Of a DNA stretch of 64,000 nt, positions 3,957-14,627 are shown piece by piece. The first letter of the stretch is position 1; every line of letters begins with the position of its first letter. The notes below the pieces were generated by a model. It searched no databases. It saw only the letters and a program-made list of their open reading frames with translations, and was not told where the DNA came from. The position numbers and the translations under genes were made by a program. Origin of the DNA: Candidatus Bacteroides merdigallinarum (GTDB lineage: Bacteria; Bacteroidota; Bacteroidia; Bacteroidales; Bacteroidaceae); contig DXBX01000032.1 of NCBI GenBank assembly GCA_019116285.1, positions 1 to 64,000 on the forward strand, written 5' to 3'.

Positions 3957-3988
3957 CAAAGGTACGCATTTGCAGGAAGATAGGAAAG
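3957..3988 (-). promoter_or_regulatory. Promoter region of speA with Bacteroides -7 box TACCTTTG; 32-bp sequence repeated upstream of aroK
   Basis: CAAAGGTAcGCATTTGCAGGAAGATAGGAAAG; the complement carries TAnnTTTG. Confidence 0.6.
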
Positions 3989-4753: not shown

Positions 4754-4803
4754 GGATTAAGGCTTTTTCTCTTGCCCACTTGAAAAAAATGAAAGGCGGA
4801 CAT

Positions 4804-4853
4804 AAAAAAAAGGCGCGGATAGCCGGAACTTCTGCCCGAACTGCCCGCGCCTT
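4804..4853 (-). terminator. Probable intrinsic terminator at the end of the tubulin-like operon
   Basis: AAGGCGCGG...CCGCGCCTT hairpin; on the minus strand followed by TTTTTTTT, just after the stop of 4874-5644. Confidence 0.75.
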
Positions 4854-4873: not shown

Positions 4874-5644
4874 TCAAGCCTTTTCGTCTTCTTCCAAATC
4901 TTTCATGAGTTTTTCCCATTCCTCTTCTGAAGGTTCGGGCAACGACTTGCCTGCCTCCTTCGAAGCCAGCAGTTCTTCCTGCACTTCGGCTGCCGGCTTG
5001 CAGATGATCTCGCAATCCTCATAGGCCGACAGATCGGCATTGGCATCCAAGGGGAAGCCTTCGTCGTTGAAGGTTTTCTGATAATCCTCTATTGCTTTCA
5101 AATATCCCCTGCGCAATTTCATCTGCTTCTTGATTTCCTTGATATCGCCCGCCGAAGCCAGCAATCCGGCAGCTGCCCCGATGCCTGCTCCCAGCCAGGC
5201 TTTCTTCTTGGAGCCGCCGGCCGCCTTGGCGGTCAAGGCGCCTGCCGCAGCACCTACGCCCATCTTCAGCAAGATGGCGCCACCCGACTTCAAGGCAGAG
5301 GCCAGATGTTTCTTGGCCGTGTTCGCATCGCACGCTTTGTTGTTTTGGTCATACACCAGATACTTGTACCGGATGGTACCGTCCTCGTTGCGGAGCGTAT
5401 CCCCGTTCTCGCCGGTTTCTATCATCTGCACCACGCGATAACTGGGCAAGTTGGCCAGGAATTCCTTCGTGGAAATACTGTCTTCCGGAGCCGTCGCAGC
5501 GGTGTCTGCCGCTGCTTCCGTCGTACCCGTCACCGTCTCTGCTGCTTTCTTCAGCTTCTTCAAGAATCCTTGCGCCGAAGCACCCGTTACACAAAACGCC
5601 ATCAATGCCAAGGCGCATACACTTTTCAAAATCAGTCTCTTCAT
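4874..5644 (-). CDS. Secreted/envelope protein with glycine-zipper-like segment (tubulin-like operon, gene 8)
   Basis: Signal peptide MKRLILKSVCALALMAFCVTGASA; GAAAGALTAKAAGG...GAGIGAAAGLLASAG. Confidence 0.75.
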   Translation of the reverse strand: MKRLILKSVCALALMAFCVTGASAQGFLKKLKKAAETVTGTTEAAADTAATAPEDSISTKEFLANLPSYRVVQMIETGENGDTLRNEDGTIRYKYLVYDQNNKACDANTAKKHLASALKSGGAILLKMGVGAAAGALTAKAAGGSKKKAWLGAGIGAAAGLLASAGDIKEIKKQMKLRRGYLKAIEDYQKTFNDEGFPLDANADLSAYEDCEIICKPAAEVQEELLASKEAGKSLPEPSEEEWEKLMKDLEEDEKA

Positions 5645-5712
5645 ACGTCTTAAATTTAATAGTTACTATATGGTTTTCTAAAATCGTCCGTTTTTTCCAC
5701 AAGCAGAATCAT

Positions 5713-7293
5713 TTATTTGGTGTACATTTTTACCCTAAACTGTTTCTTCTTATAGGTACCGCGCGCCTGGCGCATCAGTTCCTCCAGGGGCATATAGACA
5801 ATCTTCTGCCCGGAATCCTCTTTGGGGCGGAACAAGATTCCCGTGGGCAGACTCTTACGATCCAACTCAATCTCGGCAATGCCGTCCGCACCGGATTGTC
5901 CGACCTGCTGGAAATTGTAGCCTTCGTTCTTGAGCATACGGCGGAATTTCTTGTCAGACGAAAAGGTGCTGGACGAGATTTGGCCGAACCCGCGATAGGT
6001 CCATATCTCCACACCCGGTATGGGATTGCCCTCGGAGAGGGTGAGCCACTCCACAAAGGTGAACTTCACCTGCAACTTCATGTCATCAAGCAGATTTTTC
6101 AACGATTCTATCCGCTTCAGGTAATAATCGTCCGGATTGAACTGATACAGTTGTTGCAGGTACGCAATACCATACGAGGCATAGTTGGATACCTCAGCCT
6201 GCGTAGCCTTTCCCTGCTTCTTCAGCGCGGCAATCTTCTGGAAACTGCGGAAAGCCAGCAGGTCATACAAGGCGCATGAGTCGCACAGGTTGATGGCCGA
6301 CTGGATGACAGGTTGCATCTCGCTCACCACGCTCTCTCCGGTGTTCAGAGCTTTGTCATACGCCTCGCGGGCAGCCTTATACTTGCGCATCCCGAAGAGG
6401 CGTCCTCCCTCGTCCATCAAGGCGCTGCATTGGGTGGTGAAGACTTCCTTTTCCACCACAATAGGCAACACGATGTAGGTGCGCTTGGCGCGAGGCGACA
6501 AATCCGAGATGTCCACGGACAAATAGTTGGTACCATCGCCATAAAGCAGCACGCTGGACAGATTGGCCAGTTTCCGGTCCGCTTCCTCCCACTGCGATTT
6601 GATGGCATCCATCTCGTCCCACTCCGGGGCATCCTCGGCCAACGTTCCTTCATCTACCATCGCGTCCAGTTCCGCCTTGCGCTTGTCCAGCCGCTCAAAA
6701 GCGTCACGAGCCTCATCAAGCTTGGCCAGCGGAATCACTACAGTGACCACCCACAACGATTTGTCCGACTTGCTGACTCCGCTGGTGACCTGCGCCTGCA
6801 ACTCGGGCGGACACTTCACCTGCAAGCCTTTGAGAGTCGTGGTAAACTCCAACGCAGCCTCCGTAGCATTGAAATGGACATCGTTGGCCTCCGTCTGATC
6901 TTCCAGACGGATAGGATTGGCCACTTCCTTCAAGCGAAAAGCCTGCAAGAAGTCCGGATTCTTCAGCTTTACCAGTTGGGTTGCCTTGTAAGGAACCCCC
7001 ATCCGGCTCACCTCCAGCTTGGGCTGCTTGGTGTCCTTCACGTCAATAATGACATAATAGCGGTAATAGCCGTCCATGCCGCGACCGTTCAGACGTACGG
7101 AAACCGGATACTTGGCATTCGTCACCGAAATGACCAAATCCTTGTGCTCCGACAAGATGAGCACGCCGCGGTTGCCGTCCAGCATCTCAAAGCAATCGGC
7201 CTCCGGCGCAGGATTCAATTCATTGATGCCCGTCTGCGCACTTATTGTCAAAGCCAGACAAAGGAGACAGCTTAGAAAAAGAAATCGTTTCAT
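5713..7293 (-). CDS. Conserved hypothetical secreted protein with TPR-like stretch (tubulin-like operon, gene 7)
   Basis: 526 aa; signal peptide MKRFLFLSCLLCLALTISAQ; beta-rich N-terminus, helical middle (KYKAAREAYDKALNTGE). Confidence 0.75.
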   Translation of the reverse strand: MKRFLFLSCLLCLALTISAQTGINELNPAPEADCFEMLDGNRGVLILSEHKDLVISVTNAKYPVSVRLNGRGMDGYYRYYVIIDVKDTKQPKLEVSRMGVPYKATQLVKLKNPDFLQAFRLKEVANPIRLEDQTEANDVHFNATEAALEFTTTLKGLQVKCPPELQAQVTSGVSKSDKSLWVVTVVIPLAKLDEARDAFERLDKRKAELDAMVDEGTLAEDAPEWDEMDAIKSQWEEADRKLANLSSVLLYGDGTNYLSVDISDLSPRAKRTYIVLPIVVEKEVFTTQCSALMDEGGRLFGMRKYKAAREAYDKALNTGESVVSEMQPVIQSAINLCDSCALYDLLAFRSFQKIAALKKQGKATQAEVSNYASYGIAYLQQLYQFNPDDYYLKRIESLKNLLDDMKLQVKFTFVEWLTLSEGNPIPGVEIWTYRGFGQISSSTFSSDKKFRRMLKNEGYNFQQVGQSGADGIAEIELDRKSLPTGILFRPKEDSGQKIVYMPLEELMRQARGTYKKKQFRVKMYTK

Positions 7294-7311
7294 AATCTTT
7301 CGCGTTAAGGA

Positions 7312-8331
7312 TTACAAATCAAAGGCTCCCAGCGTGGAGATATCATCATCCGGCTGCTGGCGCACGCCACCCACCCACTCAGGTTGCCAGGTGCGCACAT
7401 GGATGATAGGGCTGCCGCCGTCTTCGGGGAACTCCCACAGCAGGAAGAGGTAGCCCTCGTCGCTATAACTGCTGGATTTCCACTCCTGACGCAGGCGCAC
7501 GCCGTACATGGTAGGATTCACCACGGAGCGGGTGATGCCGGCGCAGCCGCCTTCTTCTCCGTTCTCGCCAATCTCGCTGAACTTGACTTCAATCCACTTG
7601 TTGCGCAGGAATGCTTTCTTCAGATTGCGGATATACTCTTCCTTGCTCTGCTTGTTGTAGCGCACCTTCTGTGTCATCACCCCGCGGTCGTCATTGGAGC
7701 GGACGGTAACCACCGTGCCTGTGATAATCAACGCATCATCACTGAAAATCTGGTTGATAAAATCAATATCCTTTTGGTTATAAGCCGTGCGGAAGCGCTC
7801 GATATACTGCATGATGACCATCTGCTTCTCTTTCTCCACCACACTGCCACAATGCTCCAGGCTCTCCGAAAGCTGGGCATCCAGCGCCAGACGGAAATCG
7901 GTCAGACGCCCCCGCGCATCAAACTCCACGATGGCTTCCTGATAAGTTCCCACGCCGAAATCTTCTTCTTGCGGCGTGATGATCAAGGGGATATGACTCA
8001 CCATCATCGTGCCGTCTTCGAACACCCAACAACGCTCCACCACTTCCTCGTCGTCGCAATAGAACGGTGTGACCGCCCACAGGCGCAACAGCGAACGGAG
8101 CGAAAACTCGTCCATGGGCAGGCCGTTGGTCGTCAGGATGCTCTTGGCCTGCTGTGCGCGGTTGATCTCGGTCAACACACGCCCCAGATTGCGTGCGGCA
8201 TTCTCCAGCGCAGCCGGACGGTCTACCCCTTCGTCGATGGTCAGGGTCACTTCCACAGCCTTGCCCTCGTTCACTCCCCACCAAAAACAGGCAGCCAGGA
8301 TGAACATTATTCGTGTCAATCTCATCTTCAT
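7312..8331 (-). CDS. Secreted hypothetical protein with NTF2-like segment (tubulin-like operon, gene 6)
   Basis: 339 aa; signal peptide; RFRTAYNQKDIDFINQIFSDDALIITGTVV resembles SnoaL/NTF2-like domains. Confidence 0.7.
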   Translation of the reverse strand: MKMRLTRIMFILAACFWWGVNEGKAVEVTLTIDEGVDRPAALENAARNLGRVLTEINRAQQAKSILTTNGLPMDEFSLRSLLRLWAVTPFYCDDEEVVERCWVFEDGTMMVSHIPLIITPQEEDFGVGTYQEAIVEFDARGRLTDFRLALDAQLSESLEHCGSVVEKEKQMVIMQYIERFRTAYNQKDIDFINQIFSDDALIITGTVVTVRSNDDRGVMTQKVRYNKQSKEEYIRNLKKAFLRNKWIEVKFSEIGENGEEGGCAGITRSVVNPTMYGVRLRQEWKSSSYSDEGYLFLLWEFPEDGGSPIIHVRTWQPEWVGGVRQQPDDDISTLGAFDL

Positions 8332-8382
8332 TTTGTCTGTATTCTATATAATTAATGCGTGTAATTTTTTTACATTCTTCCC

Positions 8383-9069
8383 TTAATCCACCTTGATGCC
8401 GATGGCGCCACAGCCTCGGTAATTCGCGATGCCATCCGGCTTGCCTGTCTTCACATTCAGGCGCTCAGGTCCCGGTGTCAACACGGCCACCACTTGGGCT
8501 TCTTTGTTGTATATGACCAGGTAACATTCATCCGGGTCGTCCAGCGAAGCATAGCGTGCATACTCCTCTATCTTACCTTCTTCCTTCAGCTGCTTCACCT
8601 TTTCAGCCATTTTGTAATAGTCTGTATAATCCGCTACCACTTGGATGGCCTCCGGCAGAGTCGGCTGCAGTTTCTCTTCCACAGCCGGCAGATTCTCATT
8701 GGCAATGACTACTGCATTCTCCGTAGGCAGGATATCACTTTTCTTGACATAAACAAAGTAGCGGAACATATTGCTTCCCCGAGGCATGGACAGCGTTGTC
8801 CACAACTCCTTACGGTTGTTCACCACCAGGTTGGCACTGCCTTTCAGCTTCTTTTGCGTGGCCACCCATTTGTTGACCTCGTCATACAGCCGCTCCTCGG
8901 CATAAGCACGTGCATCTGCCTCCGTGGGGGCTGTAGACTCCGCATAAATGTATTGCGAACTCTTCTTGATTTGGTTAATCTGTTTCTTCACATCATCCAC
9001 AGGGCCGGCGAACAGGGTCATCGGCACAAGACAACAAAGAACAAACATCCACCACATTATTCTATTCAT
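8383..9069 (-). CDS. Secreted hypothetical protein (tubulin-like operon, gene 5)
   Basis: 228 aa with signal peptide; start overlaps the stop of the next upstream gene. Confidence 0.75.
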   Translation of the reverse strand: MNRIMWWMFVLCCLVPMTLFAGPVDDVKKQINQIKKSSQYIYAESTAPTEADARAYAEERLYDEVNKWVATQKKLKGSANLVVNNRKELWTTLSMPRGSNMFRYFVYVKKSDILPTENAVVIANENLPAVEEKLQPTLPEAIQVVADYTDYYKMAEKVKQLKEEGKIEEYARYASLDDPDECYLVIYNKEAQVVAVLTPGPERLNVKTGKPDGIANYRGCGAIGIKVD

Positions 9070-10187
9070 GATTTCGGGTCTATAGAGTTAGTTATGAAGA
9101 ATTTTTCTGTAATGTTCTGCAAGGGAGTAAAGGCATAGAGTGTACCCACGAGGGTAGCCTCGCCTTGTATCCACCCGTCCGAAACGGACAAACTGAGTGT
9201 ATGGCAGTAAGCCAATCCGAGATGGACAGCAAAAAGGGTCACTTCCTGCCCGCTCTCCTTCGATTCCTTCACTCCCACGTAAAGCCGGCAACCTTCGTTC
9301 TCGCAATAGCGTACCCACTGTTGCAAGGTCAGATCCATTACCTCCTTGGCATGGCCATACTTGTCCAATGTCAGTTTGAGAGGCACAGGCCAAGGTGCGC
9401 AACCCGTCAGCAAGAGATTGTTGAGCGTCTGCCGGGGCCATGCCTCATCCCACAGAAGCCGCCACATCCCTTGTCCGTCTTTGCGCAAGAATACGCGTGA
9501 ACGTATCATCTCACTCAGGAAAGTCCCCGCATCTGCCACGGCCATTGTATCCGCCTGCGACACCGGACATCCATGCCAGGCCGCGGGGAGGGAATCTCCC
9601 ATCAGATCGGCCGACGTACGCAACAGGTCGCGCTCCAATATTGCCTCCTGCTCCAACAGATTGACTCCCCAAATGGTCTGGCAATCAGCTTGAACCACCA
9701 GGCAGACTTTACCATCTCCCTCACCCCAGGTCAACTGATACGCACGTCGTTCCTGCGCTTGTATCTGAACAGGTGTTTCGGGAGTCAACGACTTTAACAT
9801 TGTAGCGTTGCCTTGCAGGAAGGAGACTGCCTTACGGCTGGTGAACTCCGCCTTGTCCTCGGGAGGCAAGACATCCTCTTCGAGGGCATAACGCTCCACG
9901 AAGTCCAGCACCGGACGCTCCGCGGAAGTAGCTGCCCAACGGGTATCGAACAACTTATAACCTATGTGAGACACATCGCCAAAGCTATTCGTGCGTATCC
10001 GCAAGGTCCTACCCCGGAAACTCCACGTGGAGTCATTGTCCACACCGGGGCTCAGCGTATCCGGCAAGGCCAACCCGATGGCACGGGCCAACCTTTCCAG
10101 ACACGAAGTATGGTATGCGGGGGTAGCCATCGCTCCGCAAGCGAAAGCTACCACCACTCCTACCAACAGGCAACGCCGCAGGTTCAT
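9066..10187 (-). CDS. Secreted hypothetical protein (tubulin-like operon, gene 4)
   Basis: 373 aa; signal peptide MNLRRCLLVGVVVAFACGAMA; 4-bp overlaps with both neighbours. Confidence 0.75.
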   Translation of the reverse strand: MNLRRCLLVGVVVAFACGAMATPAYHTSCLERLARAIGLALPDTLSPGVDNDSTWSFRGRTLRIRTNSFGDVSHIGYKLFDTRWAATSAERPVLDFVERYALEEDVLPPEDKAEFTSRKAVSFLQGNATMLKSLTPETPVQIQAQERRAYQLTWGEGDGKVCLVVQADCQTIWGVNLLEQEAILERDLLRTSADLMGDSLPAAWHGCPVSQADTMAVADAGTFLSEMIRSRVFLRKDGQGMWRLLWDEAWPRQTLNNLLLTGCAPWPVPLKLTLDKYGHAKEVMDLTLQQWVRYCENEGCRLYVGVKESKESGQEVTLFAVHLGLAYCHTLSLSVSDGWIQGEATLVGTLYAFTPLQNITEKFFITNSIDPKS

Positions 10188-10819
10188 GGCTTCACGGCTG
10201 TTTGATTGCCATCATGTTTCCAATAACCCAAGCCGCTGATCCGGCCATCCCGGAACTCACCTTCAAAGGTATCGCCGGGACTTGCCACGAAATCTTTCGA
10301 CGATACAATCTTATGGGACTTCTTGTAAGTGATGGTTCCATAGCCGTGGGGCTTTCCGTTCTTCAGGTCACCGGTATAAGTGCCGTAACCCAGATCCACC
10401 GTACCCCGTCCGTTCAGCACTTGGGGTGCAGGAGCTTCCTTCTCGGGTGTTTTTTCTGCCGAAGTTTCAGGCTCCTCGGCCACTACGGGAGCAGCTGTCG
10501 TATCGGCAGGCTCTTCCGTCACAGTCACCGGAGGTTCATTCACTACCTCGGGCTGTTCTTTCGTATCTCCCGACGAGAAGAAATACCATCCACCGCCGGC
10601 CAGTGCCACCACTGCTACTCCAATGAGCACAAATTTAAGCCAATTGGTAGGGGGAGGAGGGGGCGGACACTCACGCAGCGGTTTGCCGCACTCCTCGCAC
10701 ACAAATTCTTTACGCGCGGAAATCTCCTGGACTTCCTTCGCTTTCGCCTTAGAGCACTGATCGTTCAGGCACATTCCATATCGGGCACGTATATGTCCCG
10801 GTTGATTCGGTCTTGTCAT
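10184..10819 (-). CDS. Zinc-ribbon-like / poly-Pro / single-TM / MORN-repeat protein (tubulin-like operon, gene 3)
   Basis: CLNDQC...CEECGKPLREC, PPPPPP, TM FVLIGVAVVALAGGGWYFF, MORN motif GYGTYTGDLKNGKPHGYGTITY. Confidence 0.8.
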   Translation of the reverse strand: MTRPNQPGHIRARYGMCLNDQCSKAKAKEVQEISARKEFVCEECGKPLRECPPPPPPTNWLKFVLIGVAVVALAGGGWYFFSSGDTKEQPEVVNEPPVTVTEEPADTTAAPVVAEEPETSAEKTPEKEAPAPQVLNGRGTVDLGYGTYTGDLKNGKPHGYGTITYKKSHKIVSSKDFVASPGDTFEGEFRDGRISGLGYWKHDGNQTAVKP

Positions 10820-10831
10820 AGTTTGAAATTA

Positions 10832-13800
10832 TTAATTAACGGATTGATTCATGATGGGCGGAGGTACCACGCCGCCTGTCGGGGGCATCGGAGGCATCTG
10901 CGGGGTAACAGGAGGCGCGAACAGCGGTTGCAGCACAGGCACCGTCGAAGCGGGTGCCCATGCCGGCATACCCTCCATCCACACCATGGTCTGCGGAGTC
11001 AATTGCCCGGCAGCGACCATCTGCTTGCAGGAATCGTAATTATACGGGCCGTATTGCTGGGTACCCATGCCTATGTACAACGAAATGACCGGCGTCTGCA
11101 TGGGCGGAGGCACAGGTGCCCCACCACCCAACGGAGGAGGAACCGGAGCGCCCCCGCCAACGGGCGGCATCGTAGCTCCCGGCATCTGCATGCCACTTCC
11201 CGCCATGGGCTGCGGCTGGGCGGCTGCTGCCTGTCTGGCTAACTCCTGTGCCGCGATTTCCTCCGCATTGTCCACGGCAAACAACGGCGGGAACTGGCTG
11301 CCGTCTCCCTCGCTGTGCAACAGGATGGCATTGCCTGCATCCGTAGCCGGATTGCCCGTATGCAGGAATTGATCATAACGCTGCTTGTAGGGCGCCATCC
11401 AGTCAATGGCACGCATGGGGAAGCAATAAGCCACCGTGATAATGGACAACTCGTCTTTGCGCAAACTCTTGCGGTTTACGGTAATGGAGGTACGCGCCGT
11501 GCTTTGATTGAACGAATTCTTGAAGGCGGTTTCCAACTTATCGGCAAACTTCTTCAGCCCCTCATTCTCGTCCGGCGAAGGGATGGACACCAAGATGGCT
11601 TTCTTACAAGTGCTGGCCGGATTGGTCGGACTCAGGTTGCCTTCATTGTTGCGCAAGTGCAACTGAATCTGGTCGTTGTTCAGCTTCAGGTACACGCCAC
11701 TTTGACTGACAATCTTCGAGGCAAACGCCTTGATGTCGTCATCCGTCTTCAGTTTCTGCTGCAACTGGGTCAGAATGTTCAATCCCAATACCTTCTCGTC
11801 GCTATCTGCCTTTTCATCGTGCTTGGCCTTGACAATGGCGGCCAGTTTCACGTCAAACGCATCCTTGATGTCGTCGATGCTGATGTTGTTGGACAAGATA
11901 CCGAAGTTGATAAACTCTTCCTTCGGCAAGATGGCATCGCGCAACTGGCGGGCAATGTTAGGCATATCCACCTTGTCCACCTTGATGTCTACCTCGAATT
12001 CCTGCATCTTCTCGTCTTCGCTCACCTCGATGATAGCCCCCTTCATATCCTCCAAGCCTTTGTTCACCTTGCGCTGGGCAACAATCAGCTTCTCGGTTTC
12101 CTCGATGGCATCGTTGATTTTCTGGCTGAACATCAGGATATCCGCATCCATCTTGCCCAACTCGGCAAAGACTTTGGCAGCCAGTTTCTTGGCAAATTCC
12201 CAAGCCACCAGCATCGTTTTCGCCGTATAGTAGTCCGTCAGGATGTTCTGATGGTCGCCATACAGACGGGCGCCCTTACCTACCATGCGTTGCAGGACTC
12301 CCAGGCGGCTCCACTCGTACACATTCGCATTGCGGTCCTGGTCGCAGGCTTCGTAATTGTTCTTCTCTTCGTTAGCCTTTGCCTCTATCTCTCCACGGAT
12401 TTCGCTCATGCGCTCCAGCAACAGTTTGGATACCTTCTGAAGCTCCACGATGGACACATCGCCCAACTTCCATTTATCAAATAGTTCGCTCTCTATCCGA
12501 TGGCGGATTTCGCGGGCCATTTCGGGGATGGCGCGCTCCTTGCCGGCAAAGAAAGTTTCCACTCCTTCCTCACGGAAATGCTGCACGTAGAACTCGCCCA
12601 TGATGTTATCCAGCTCGTTCAGCGGGCAATCCGCCTTCTTGGCCTCTTCAGCATAGGCGATGGCCTTGTCGTGCCAATAGTCGTTGAACGTGGGATAATC
12701 AGCATCCGACTCCAGCACCTTCACGTTCAGCGTCAGGTGGGAGTCATCCAGCATCCAATGGGTCAGGTTATCTTTGTTCAGATATTCCTTGCGATAGTCC
12801 TTGTTCTTCTCCTCGTTGACAAATCCCTGGTTTTCACGCCAGTTGTTATACTTGAACTGATAGAGGATACTTTCGCCCACCGTATAAGTGATATGCTTCA
12901 GGATACGCAGTTCCGGATACATCACGCGCTTGATGCCGAAAGAATTCAGCTTCTTGGTACGTGCCACCCGGATGCGCCCGTCCGCACCCGGATTGGCCGT
13001 TTCGTCAAACTCCAGCGCAAACTCGTCCATGTTCTCAAACTGGTAGGCGCGGATAATGTCGCCGTTGATCTGATCTTCACTGTTCACGAAGAAGATGCGG
13101 GCAAAGACATAATCGCTGACAATCTTGGGCAGTTCCTGCAAGGAATTGATGGTCAAACCATTGTCATTCACGTTGCTGTAAACGGTCAGCCCGTCGGCCA
13201 CGCCTTTGATACGGTCGTTATACAACTTGATTTCTCCACGCCCTGTCACATCCTGCGGATTCCAACGTCCGGCCTGCAAAGCGTTCAGCTCCACCATGGC
13301 CGCATATCCGTTTTGGTAATAACGGCCCTGATCCATATCGCTCTTGGGCAGGTTCATCTCGGGAATCATGACGTACGCCAGGACCCTGGCATCGGGGAAG
13401 GTCTTGCGCGTCTGCGTAACCACGTCGACAATGGAACCCGAACCGGTGCCGCCACACAAGCCGGCAAAGATATGGATGGTCTTCACATCGGAATTGCCGG
13501 ATACCAACTCGCAACGGGCATAGGCATCGCGCAGGCTGTTGACATAGCCGATGGCGTTCGCCGCGAAGAGCAAACGGCCCGCACGGCGTTTCTGTCCGGC
13601 AGCCTGCCCCAGCGAACCGATGGCCGACTTGACGGCAGACACATTATCCACAATGCCCTTCACCGAAGGATAGTTATTGATATGATCCAGGATATGCTCC
13701 ACATCCACGGCCTTGATATTCAAGAATTCATTGTTGGTGAACGATGCGTCCTGCCCCATCACGCGGAAATCCGGGCGTGCCCGTCCGTCCTTGGGCATCA

Positions 13801-13969
13801 TCTCGTCCGTAGAATCCACGTACAACAGGGCTATGGGCAACTTGGCCCGCTCTTCCTGCGTGGGAAACTCCTCGAACATACGCATTTTGAAGGCGCGCAG
13901 GATTTTACCGCCTGTACCTCCCAACCCAACCAAGATATGGTTGCCGTGGCAAAAATTTGTCTTTGTCAT
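10832..13969 (-). CDS. Large tubulin/FtsZ-superfamily-like protein with C-terminal GYF-like domain
   Basis: 1045 aa; N-terminal HILVGLGGTGGKILRAF, tubulin signature FAGLCGGTGSGSIVD, long helical middle, Pro-rich linker, C-terminal QQYGPYNYDSCKQMVAAGQLTPQTMVWMEGMPAWAPA. Confidence 0.85.
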   Translation of the reverse strand: MTKTNFCHGNHILVGLGGTGGKILRAFKMRMFEEFPTQEERAKLPIALLYVDSTDEMMPKDGRARPDFRVMGQDASFTNNEFLNIKAVDVEHILDHINNYPSVKGIVDNVSAVKSAIGSLGQAAGQKRRAGRLLFAANAIGYVNSLRDAYARCELVSGNSDVKTIHIFAGLCGGTGSGSIVDVVTQTRKTFPDARVLAYVMIPEMNLPKSDMDQGRYYQNGYAAMVELNALQAGRWNPQDVTGRGEIKLYNDRIKGVADGLTVYSNVNDNGLTINSLQELPKIVSDYVFARIFFVNSEDQINGDIIRAYQFENMDEFALEFDETANPGADGRIRVARTKKLNSFGIKRVMYPELRILKHITYTVGESILYQFKYNNWRENQGFVNEEKNKDYRKEYLNKDNLTHWMLDDSHLTLNVKVLESDADYPTFNDYWHDKAIAYAEEAKKADCPLNELDNIMGEFYVQHFREEGVETFFAGKERAIPEMAREIRHRIESELFDKWKLGDVSIVELQKVSKLLLERMSEIRGEIEAKANEEKNNYEACDQDRNANVYEWSRLGVLQRMVGKGARLYGDHQNILTDYYTAKTMLVAWEFAKKLAAKVFAELGKMDADILMFSQKINDAIEETEKLIVAQRKVNKGLEDMKGAIIEVSEDEKMQEFEVDIKVDKVDMPNIARQLRDAILPKEEFINFGILSNNISIDDIKDAFDVKLAAIVKAKHDEKADSDEKVLGLNILTQLQQKLKTDDDIKAFASKIVSQSGVYLKLNNDQIQLHLRNNEGNLSPTNPASTCKKAILVSIPSPDENEGLKKFADKLETAFKNSFNQSTARTSITVNRKSLRKDELSIITVAYCFPMRAIDWMAPYKQRYDQFLHTGNPATDAGNAILLHSEGDGSQFPPLFAVDNAEEIAAQELARQAAAAQPQPMAGSGMQMPGATMPPVGGGAPVPPPLGGGAPVPPPMQTPVISLYIGMGTQQYGPYNYDSCKQMVAAGQLTPQTMVWMEGMPAWAPASTVPVLQPLFAPPVTPQMPPMPPTGGVVPPPIMNQSVN

Positions 13970-14003
13970 GATGTTGTGATTTGATTTATGTTTCTATGAA
14001 ATA

Positions 14004-14627
14004 TTATCTTCTCCGGCTAACTCGGATTCTGTTTTGGCGTTGTGTTGTCCCGCGCGGCCGGTTCATCGGGGCACGCTCCGTCATGCGGCCCGAACTCAGG
14101 CGCTGGCGGTTGTGACTGCGGGTGATGGTCTTGATGACGATGATGGCACCTATCACCACAAAGACCAGCGACCAGCAGACACGGCGCAGGATGAAACGGT
14201 TCATGTAGCTACGCAGCTCATCGGCCATGGCAGCACCTATCGTAGCGGAAGTATGTCCCTGAAAATCGGCCATGTTGACGTAATAGCCCACCAGCGGCCA
14301 TTCTTCGCTGATGCGATCCAAGATTTGCTGACTGTCCTCCGTAGAGAACGGTATATCGTCGGGAACAGCGGCCACCATCCCATTGATGGCCGTCTCCACA
14401 TCGTCGCAATAAGACTTGATGGTGACCGCCCCGCAAAGCAGGACTGCCTGGAAGGCCAGAAAGAAGAACAGGATGCCGCCCACCACGAAACTCATAGGCG
14501 TGAACGTGCTGTCGCGCCACCAGGAACGTATCAGCACGAACATCAGCACGATGCCCACGATTGTCAAGAACACGCCGAGCAGCAAACTGCCCACGGAATA
14601 CATTAGGATATTGACCAATGCTCCCAT
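14004..14627 (-). CDS. Multi-TM membrane protein (tubulin-like operon, gene 1)
   Basis: 207 aa, three hydrophobic segments and a strongly basic C-terminus; 34 bp upstream of the tubulin-like gene. Confidence 0.75.
   Translation of the reverse strand: MGALVNILMYSVGSLLLGVFLTIVGIVLMFVLIRSWWRDSTFTPMSFVVGGILFFFLAFQAVLLCGAVTIKSYCDDVETAINGMVAAVPDDIPFSTEDSQQILDRISEEWPLVGYYVNMADFQGHTSATIGAAMADELRSYMNRFILRRVCWSLVFVVIGAIIVIKTITRSHNRQRLSSGRMTERAPMNRPRGTTQRQNRIRVSRRR

Follow-up and report, generated by a model that had tools for sequence, protein, structure and literature searches.

An FtsZl1-family tubulin operon of Bacteroidales composed of two recombining modules that split inside a predicted bridge protein

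The analysed stretch of 64,000 nucleotides (the window) from a contig of Candidatus Bacteroides merdigallinarum (DXBX01000032.1) carries an operon of eight genes, lettered A to H, which encodes a large protein of the tubulin superfamily together with membrane-bound and exported partners (Table 1). It is built from two recombining modules with independent histories that split inside gene C, which joins a zinc ribbon to a domain of MORN repeats. As described in an earlier note on this DNA, all eight open reading frames lie on the minus strand, between 14627 and 4874, with small gaps or 4-bp overlaps; the gaps measure 34 bp (A-B), 12 bp (B-C), 51 bp (E-F), 18 bp (F-G), and 68 bp (G-H), and the overlaps are at C-D and D-E. 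Because of this close spacing and the overlaps, genes A to H are predicted to be co-transcribed.

Table 1. Genes and regulatory features of the operon (TM, transmembrane; aa, amino acids)
Feature	Position	Strand	Description
Gene A	14004..14627	-	207-aa inner-membrane protein, three TM helices, co-varies with B
Gene B	10832..13969	-	1045-aa FtsZl1/Tubulin_2 protein
Gene C	10184..10819	-	zinc ribbon 1-50, ECPPPPPP, TM 63-81, linker, MORN 134-211
Gene D	9066..10187	-	exported 373-aa protein, no known family
Gene E	8383..9069	-	exported, 228 aa; LPP20-related N-terminal part (via remote homologues)
Gene F	7312..8331	-	exported 339-aa protein; weak DUF4440/SnoaL (NTF2-like) match
Gene G	5713..7293	-	exported 526-aa protein, TPR-like region; accessory
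Gene H	4874..5644	-	exported 256-aa protein, glycine-zipper-like stretch; accessory
Bacteroides-type promoter, TTG-N20-TACCTTTG	14819-14789	-	box TACCTTTG at 14796-14789, TTG 20 nt before
Terminator-like GC-rich hairpin + eight T	4802..4853 (hairpin 4853-4810)	-	folding, -28.1 kcal/mol

The TAnnTTTG box that the earlier note had placed upstream of the operon is part of a Bacteroides-type promoter. The complete TTG-N20-TACCTTTG pair is found 5 times within the window (0.36 expected), and the box alone is strongly enriched (11 versus 1.3 expected); among the homologous loci, 67 of 86 have a TAnnTTTG box in the 350 nt preceding gene A, compared with about 16 after shuffling. The preceding gene ends in a strong terminator (14919-14893) ahead of the operon promoter. 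At the downstream end, the predicted terminator is present as a hairpin followed by eight T; with a z-score of -1.8 it is modest when judged on energy alone, and it was absent from the output of the terminator pattern scan. The gene that follows encodes shikimate kinase and is preceded by a separate TACCTTTG box (4729-4722), and another box precedes arginine decarboxylase (3957-3964). A conserved RNA in the 5' leader was rejected, because no locus other than the closest relative (L058) shares the leader and no Rfam match exceeded the gathering score.

Gene B encodes a genuine tubulin-superfamily protein and a member of the already described FtsZl1 family, not of a new family, as documented by its Tubulin_2 match, its tubulin fold, and its conserved nucleotide-binding positions. 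When the eight proteins were scanned against Pfam and NCBIfam (E values up to 1), B matched Tubulin_2 at 5.6e-47 (161 bits versus a curated cut-off of 27) and, at its C terminus, GYF_2 at 4.5e-15 (residues 965-1012), a domain that the earlier note had missed. Its AlphaFold model (37 homologues; mean predicted local distance difference test score, 87.3) matched BtubAB, CetZ, microtubule tubulins, and FtsZ in Foldseek with a probability of 1.00. The protein comprises a GTPase fold (residues ~1-370), which contains the GGTGSGS loop, followed by a large C-terminal extension with a helical region (~430-720), a beta-alpha domain (~785-885), a proline-rich linker, and GYF_2. Positions of the nucleotide site are conserved (the G15-G21 region, G173-G178, N266, and D286), but, judged from sequence, no conserved acidic column that could represent the catalytic acid of T7 is apparent at residues 295-311 (post-H7), where the highest value is 0.67 at position 304; E312 is 0.88 acidic, yet located close to the end of the following helix.

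Structure prediction, which the earlier note had proposed as a check, recovered the tubulin fold. Of its "cytoskeletal GTPase", the fold with guanine-nucleotide loops stands, whereas polymerization, GTPase activity, and the term "cytoskeletal" in its strict sense find no support here. B shares its fold and guanine-nucleotide loops with FtsZ, CetZ, BtubAB, and TubZ but differs from them in the unconserved T7 acid and in the long helical region that follows its GTPase domain and precedes the C-terminal one; the operon setting is that of neither division nor plasmid partition. A search of the phage collection yielded no full-length relative. Two loci (L149 in genome G438 and L150 in G449) encode tandem tubulins (~775-790 and 1036 aa) before C, the shorter of which is ~28% identical to B of the window; the two may form a heterodimer, or one may be a dedicated second subunit. 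In further proteins, similarity to B is confined to the GYF/tail region (L037-L043, in genomes G362, G416, G440, G461, G334, G487, and G371), which suggests that GYF is a widespread, movable docking unit in these bacteria.

Homologous operons were recovered at 75 loci by a scan of named genomes and at more by whole-genome searches, and their gene order was called with per-protein profiles. Genes A to F occur in fixed order and on the same strand, and G and H are present in about two thirds of the loci. All of A to F are found at 80 loci (69 once near duplicates are removed), the identity of their tubulins to B of the window being as low as ~22%, and almost every complete locus with this type of tubulin holds the entire set. 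The conservation of gene order across the 69 loci far exceeds what chance would produce, and the neighbours of the tubulin gene, whose conservation the earlier note had proposed to examine, are strictly co-conserved.

The distribution of the operon is patchy. Tubulin-domain matches are present in 23 of the 201 genomes of the family (7 of the 30 matching genomes hit only the GYF/tail region and were excluded from this count), and any Tubulin_2 match in 13 of 293 genomes of the order. Within the genus of the window, only 2 of 13 listed genomes have the operon, and their tubulins are just ~27-30% identical. None of the immediate flanking genes was found near other loci, including the nearest, L058. 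Congeners generally retain the downstream aroK-speA pair; the DNA upstream of aroK varies by genome, and the operon was not found there in the congener stretches read. The simplest reading is horizontal movement or repeated loss. Two contigs of metagenome-assembled genomes labelled Clostridium and Lachnospiraceae (L109 and L120) bear the same Bacteroidales operon; their taxon names are probably wrong, because the tubulin domain of L109 is identical to that of a genome in the family of the window (G435). A second type of FtsZl1 operon in Bacteroidales (L053, L054, and L056) is arranged as described in 2010; here the tubulin is accompanied by a vWA-like exported protein (judged by eye from the sequence) and by two TM proteins, one of them small.

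Evidence for two modules comes from a gene-by-gene comparison of pairwise identities among the 69 loci (rank correlations, rho, with a Mantel test), a feature of the operon that had escaped the earlier note. The first block consists of A, B, and the zinc ribbon of C (rho 0.5-0.88; 0.84 for B and the zinc ribbon, 0.56 for A and B), and the second of the MORN domain of C together with D, E, F, and G (0.45-0.84; 0.68 for MORN and F, 0.84 for F and G), which H tracks more loosely. Correlations across blocks are mostly near 0 to 0.25, with a maximum of 0.31 (A and E), and B shows none with the MORN domain of C (rho 0.03, Mantel p 0.26). Sliding windows along C place the switch between the modules at its TM helix and linker, which track neither side well, whereas residues 1-62 track B (0.74-0.88) and residues 133-211 track D to F (0.45-0.61).

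Individual loci illustrate exchange in both directions. The window and L045 share 84% identity in F and a MORN domain that is nearly the same letter for letter, whereas their tubulins are only 25% identical; conversely, L114 and L065 agree to 82% in the tubulin but to 41% in F. Approximately unbiased (AU) tests on the B data reject groups of the F tree (p 2.5e-11 and 6.4e-5), and the same test on the F data rejects a group of the B tree (p 6e-49). Although these p values are descriptive, because the tested sets were picked after the identities were known, the likelihoods differ by 111-571 units, which makes a shared history of B and F highly implausible. Long-branch sequences, e.g., L047, are placed less securely in the trees, and the group formed by the window, L058, L060, and L045 in the F tree has only moderate support (65). 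Few pairs of loci exceed 80% identity in part of the operon, and no clean, fresh breakpoint of a recent exchange was found at the DNA level. In the main clade, the tubulin side is mostly >70% identical to that of the window, whereas D of the same loci diverges down to 20-40%; a slow tubulin and a divergent, exchanged periplasmic side would be expected if the latter faces a variable target.

The two halves also occur apart, each end of C remaining with the half to which it belongs. Elsewhere in Bacteroidota, F homologues are found with E and sometimes D, with no tubulin in the fetched stretch (L174, L186, L187, and L189 are such clusters, with or without D). Domains of the LPP20, PKD, PEGA, and WG families are present in some neighbours, homologues, or fused versions at these tubulin-free clusters, and the C-like gene of L186 encodes an exported, lipoprotein-like product with MORN at its end and without a zinc ribbon. 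Conversely, a replicon of Paraburkholderia sp. PREW-6R (L194:11869-15713) encodes a full-length relative of B (profile E value, 5e-191) followed by a zinc-ribbon/TM protein that matches the profile of C (1.7e-11), and D to G were not detected beside this pair. The pair adjoins exported proteins, one of them glycine-rich.

C, which the earlier note had recognized as a zinc-ribbon/TM/MORN protein, has invariant cysteines, a single TM helix, and MORN repeats, and together with A, whose three TM helices are accompanied by an acidic 78-residue loop and an arginine-rich cytoplasmic tail, it accounts for the two membrane proteins of the operon. Since the halves occur apart, each with its own end of C, the zinc ribbon of this putative bridge protein is presumably cytosolic and its MORN domain periplasmic. 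An additional contact is hinted at by the co-occurrence of GYF in B with a proline motif (PPP) right after the zinc ribbon of C, both called by pattern rather than by profile: 59 loci have both, 14 neither, 11 only GYF, and 2 only PPP (Fisher's exact test, 9e-8). GYF domains bind proline-rich peptides, which makes docking plausible; alternatively, GYF may bind the proline-rich linker of B itself.

The predicted export of D to H is supported by signal peptides, called with a simple hydrophobic-core rule, in nearly all homologues (D, 77/78; E, 85/86; F, 87/89; G, 51/51; H, 56/56), compared with none of 104 homologues of B. F is the best conserved of the exported proteins. The model of D is confident and has no significant match in the PDB; Foldseek searches against PDB and BFVD gave nothing below 0.001, many of the top matches being spurious (root-mean-square deviation near 20 Å), and only a weak NTF2-like resemblance across ~100 residues. 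Alignments of D, E, and G yielded only weak TPR and CarboxypepD_reg matches among Pfam and PDB sequences, and some members of G have a CarboxypepD_reg-like domain. An NCBIfam match of E to "non-heme ferritin-like" (19 bits versus a cut-off of 154) and matches to Rhabdo_M2 and SLATT/PycC were all rejected as products of chance or composition. The envelope-spanning machine envisaged by the earlier note holds in part: the way in which co-variation is split within C supports a cytosol-to-periplasm arrangement, whereas contact with the outer membrane is not supported, as lipobox-like sites are almost nil and none of the eight proteins belongs to a beta-barrel family.

These observations probably reflect an inner-membrane assembly in which a tubulin scaffold is coupled via C to an interchangeable periplasmic module. 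B, predicted to bind guanine nucleotide, would be held at the membrane by A and the zinc-ribbon end of C; in the GYF clade, its GYF domain likely docks also on the proline motif beside the zinc ribbon. The TM helix of C would lead to the periplasmic MORN domain, where D, E, and F, and G and H if present, would assemble. Via C, B may then couple its nucleotide or assembly state to periplasmic proteins with variable, target-facing specificity. The tubulin module would be conserved and serve as driver or sensor readout, and recombination would exchange the periplasmic one. We infer such an assembly and direction of signalling; the role of the operon is most likely an accessory envelope or conflict function.

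Several points weigh against this interpretation. Physical contact between the modules is the claim most open to doubt, because linkage blocks created by recombination yield the same co-variation without any contact. The lack of conservation of the T7 acid renders polymer-coupled GTP hydrolysis by B doubtful. A does not always follow B, since A of L045 is 53% identical to that of the window and B only 25%. GYF and the proline motif were gained together just once on the tree, with exceptions, and their correlation is therefore a hint and not proof of docking.

An envelope conflict or anti-phage system, whose periplasmic module would sense an invader or a neighbour's weapon and whose tubulin module would execute or amplify, is a possible but doubtful alternative. 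It would agree with the patchy distribution, the lack of a fixed genomic site, and the rapid change and exchange of the exposed half, and tubulin-containing GTPase systems have been put forward as conflict systems (Kaur et al. 2020; PMC7159879). The operon shares with the GAP1-N2/DO-type systems described there a tubulin-family protein with a helical or coiled-coil extension that is linked to membrane and extracytoplasmic proteins, but their TRAFAC GTPase, HSP70, vWA, and FNIII components were not found among the eight proteins (Pfam). Nor did the Pfam and NCBIfam scans identify a nuclease, pore, or other recognizable effector domain, and among the anti-phage core proteins of PADLOC, only PycC matched weakly (H; 0.0015, 16 bits).

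It is unlikely that the operon is a classical FtsZl1 system for membrane remodelling or vesicle formation, in which filaments of B would bend or partition the inner membrane, A and C would serve as anchors, and D to H would shape the envelope. The FtsZl1 family was described by Makarova and Koonin (2010; PMC2875224), whose alignment includes a protein of Bacteroides caccae and who proposed membrane remodelling because vWA, GTPase, kinase, and OmpA genes lie nearby; the family was subsequently set aside as divergent (PMC9871819). B agrees with this family in Tubulin_2, the GGTGSGS loop, the large C-terminal extension, and its membrane-bound and exported partners, and periplasmic partners were noted already by the reviewers and authors of the 2010 study (PMC2875224). 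However, vWA, P-loop GTPase, protein kinase, and OmpA, which are typical but not obligatory partners of FtsZl1, are all missing among the eight proteins in the Pfam and NCBIfam scans and are replaced by A, the zinc-ribbon/TM/MORN protein C, and the exported proteins D to H; their absence does not exclude membership of B itself. Also the unconserved T7 acid argues against remodelling filaments, and the exchange of the periplasmic half would be left unexplained.

It is improbable that two unrelated, adjacent operons are simply transcribed together, with C as a chance fusion and the blocks as products of linkage, because even though linkage by itself yields blocks, and although D/E/F clusters lacking a tubulin are known alongside a B-C pair beside which no D to G were detected, C joins the modules in one reading frame in nearly every locus, with unchanged order, and A to F are kept over great divergence despite repeated exchange of either half. 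A resemblance to GltJ of the gliding machinery of Myxococcus, a protein with a GYF domain and a zinc ribbon, is a domain resemblance only, as the GYF region of B and the TM/linker region of C score far below the curated cut-off (23.8 and 17.2 bits versus 450).

The open-access literature searched contains neither a published function for FtsZl1 proteins nor a description of this type of operon, and the two-module recombination is absent from the FtsZl1 description of 2010 (PMC2875224); both the operon type and its mode of evolution appear to be new. The operon provides FtsZl1 with a defined, strictly conserved set of partners in Bacteroidales and with a putative bridge protein of assigned position, and its natural chimaeras already reveal which parts belong together. 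We know of no bacterial tubulin that is linked by a TM bridge to an exchangeable periplasmic complex. Tentatively, a protein of the tubulin family may here drive a process that crosses the inner membrane, or read it out, while recombination swaps the periplasmic specificity module at the bridge protein. If the coupling is true, this protein would act across the membrane on periplasmic proteins, and the swapping of modules points to a changing target of the exposed half.

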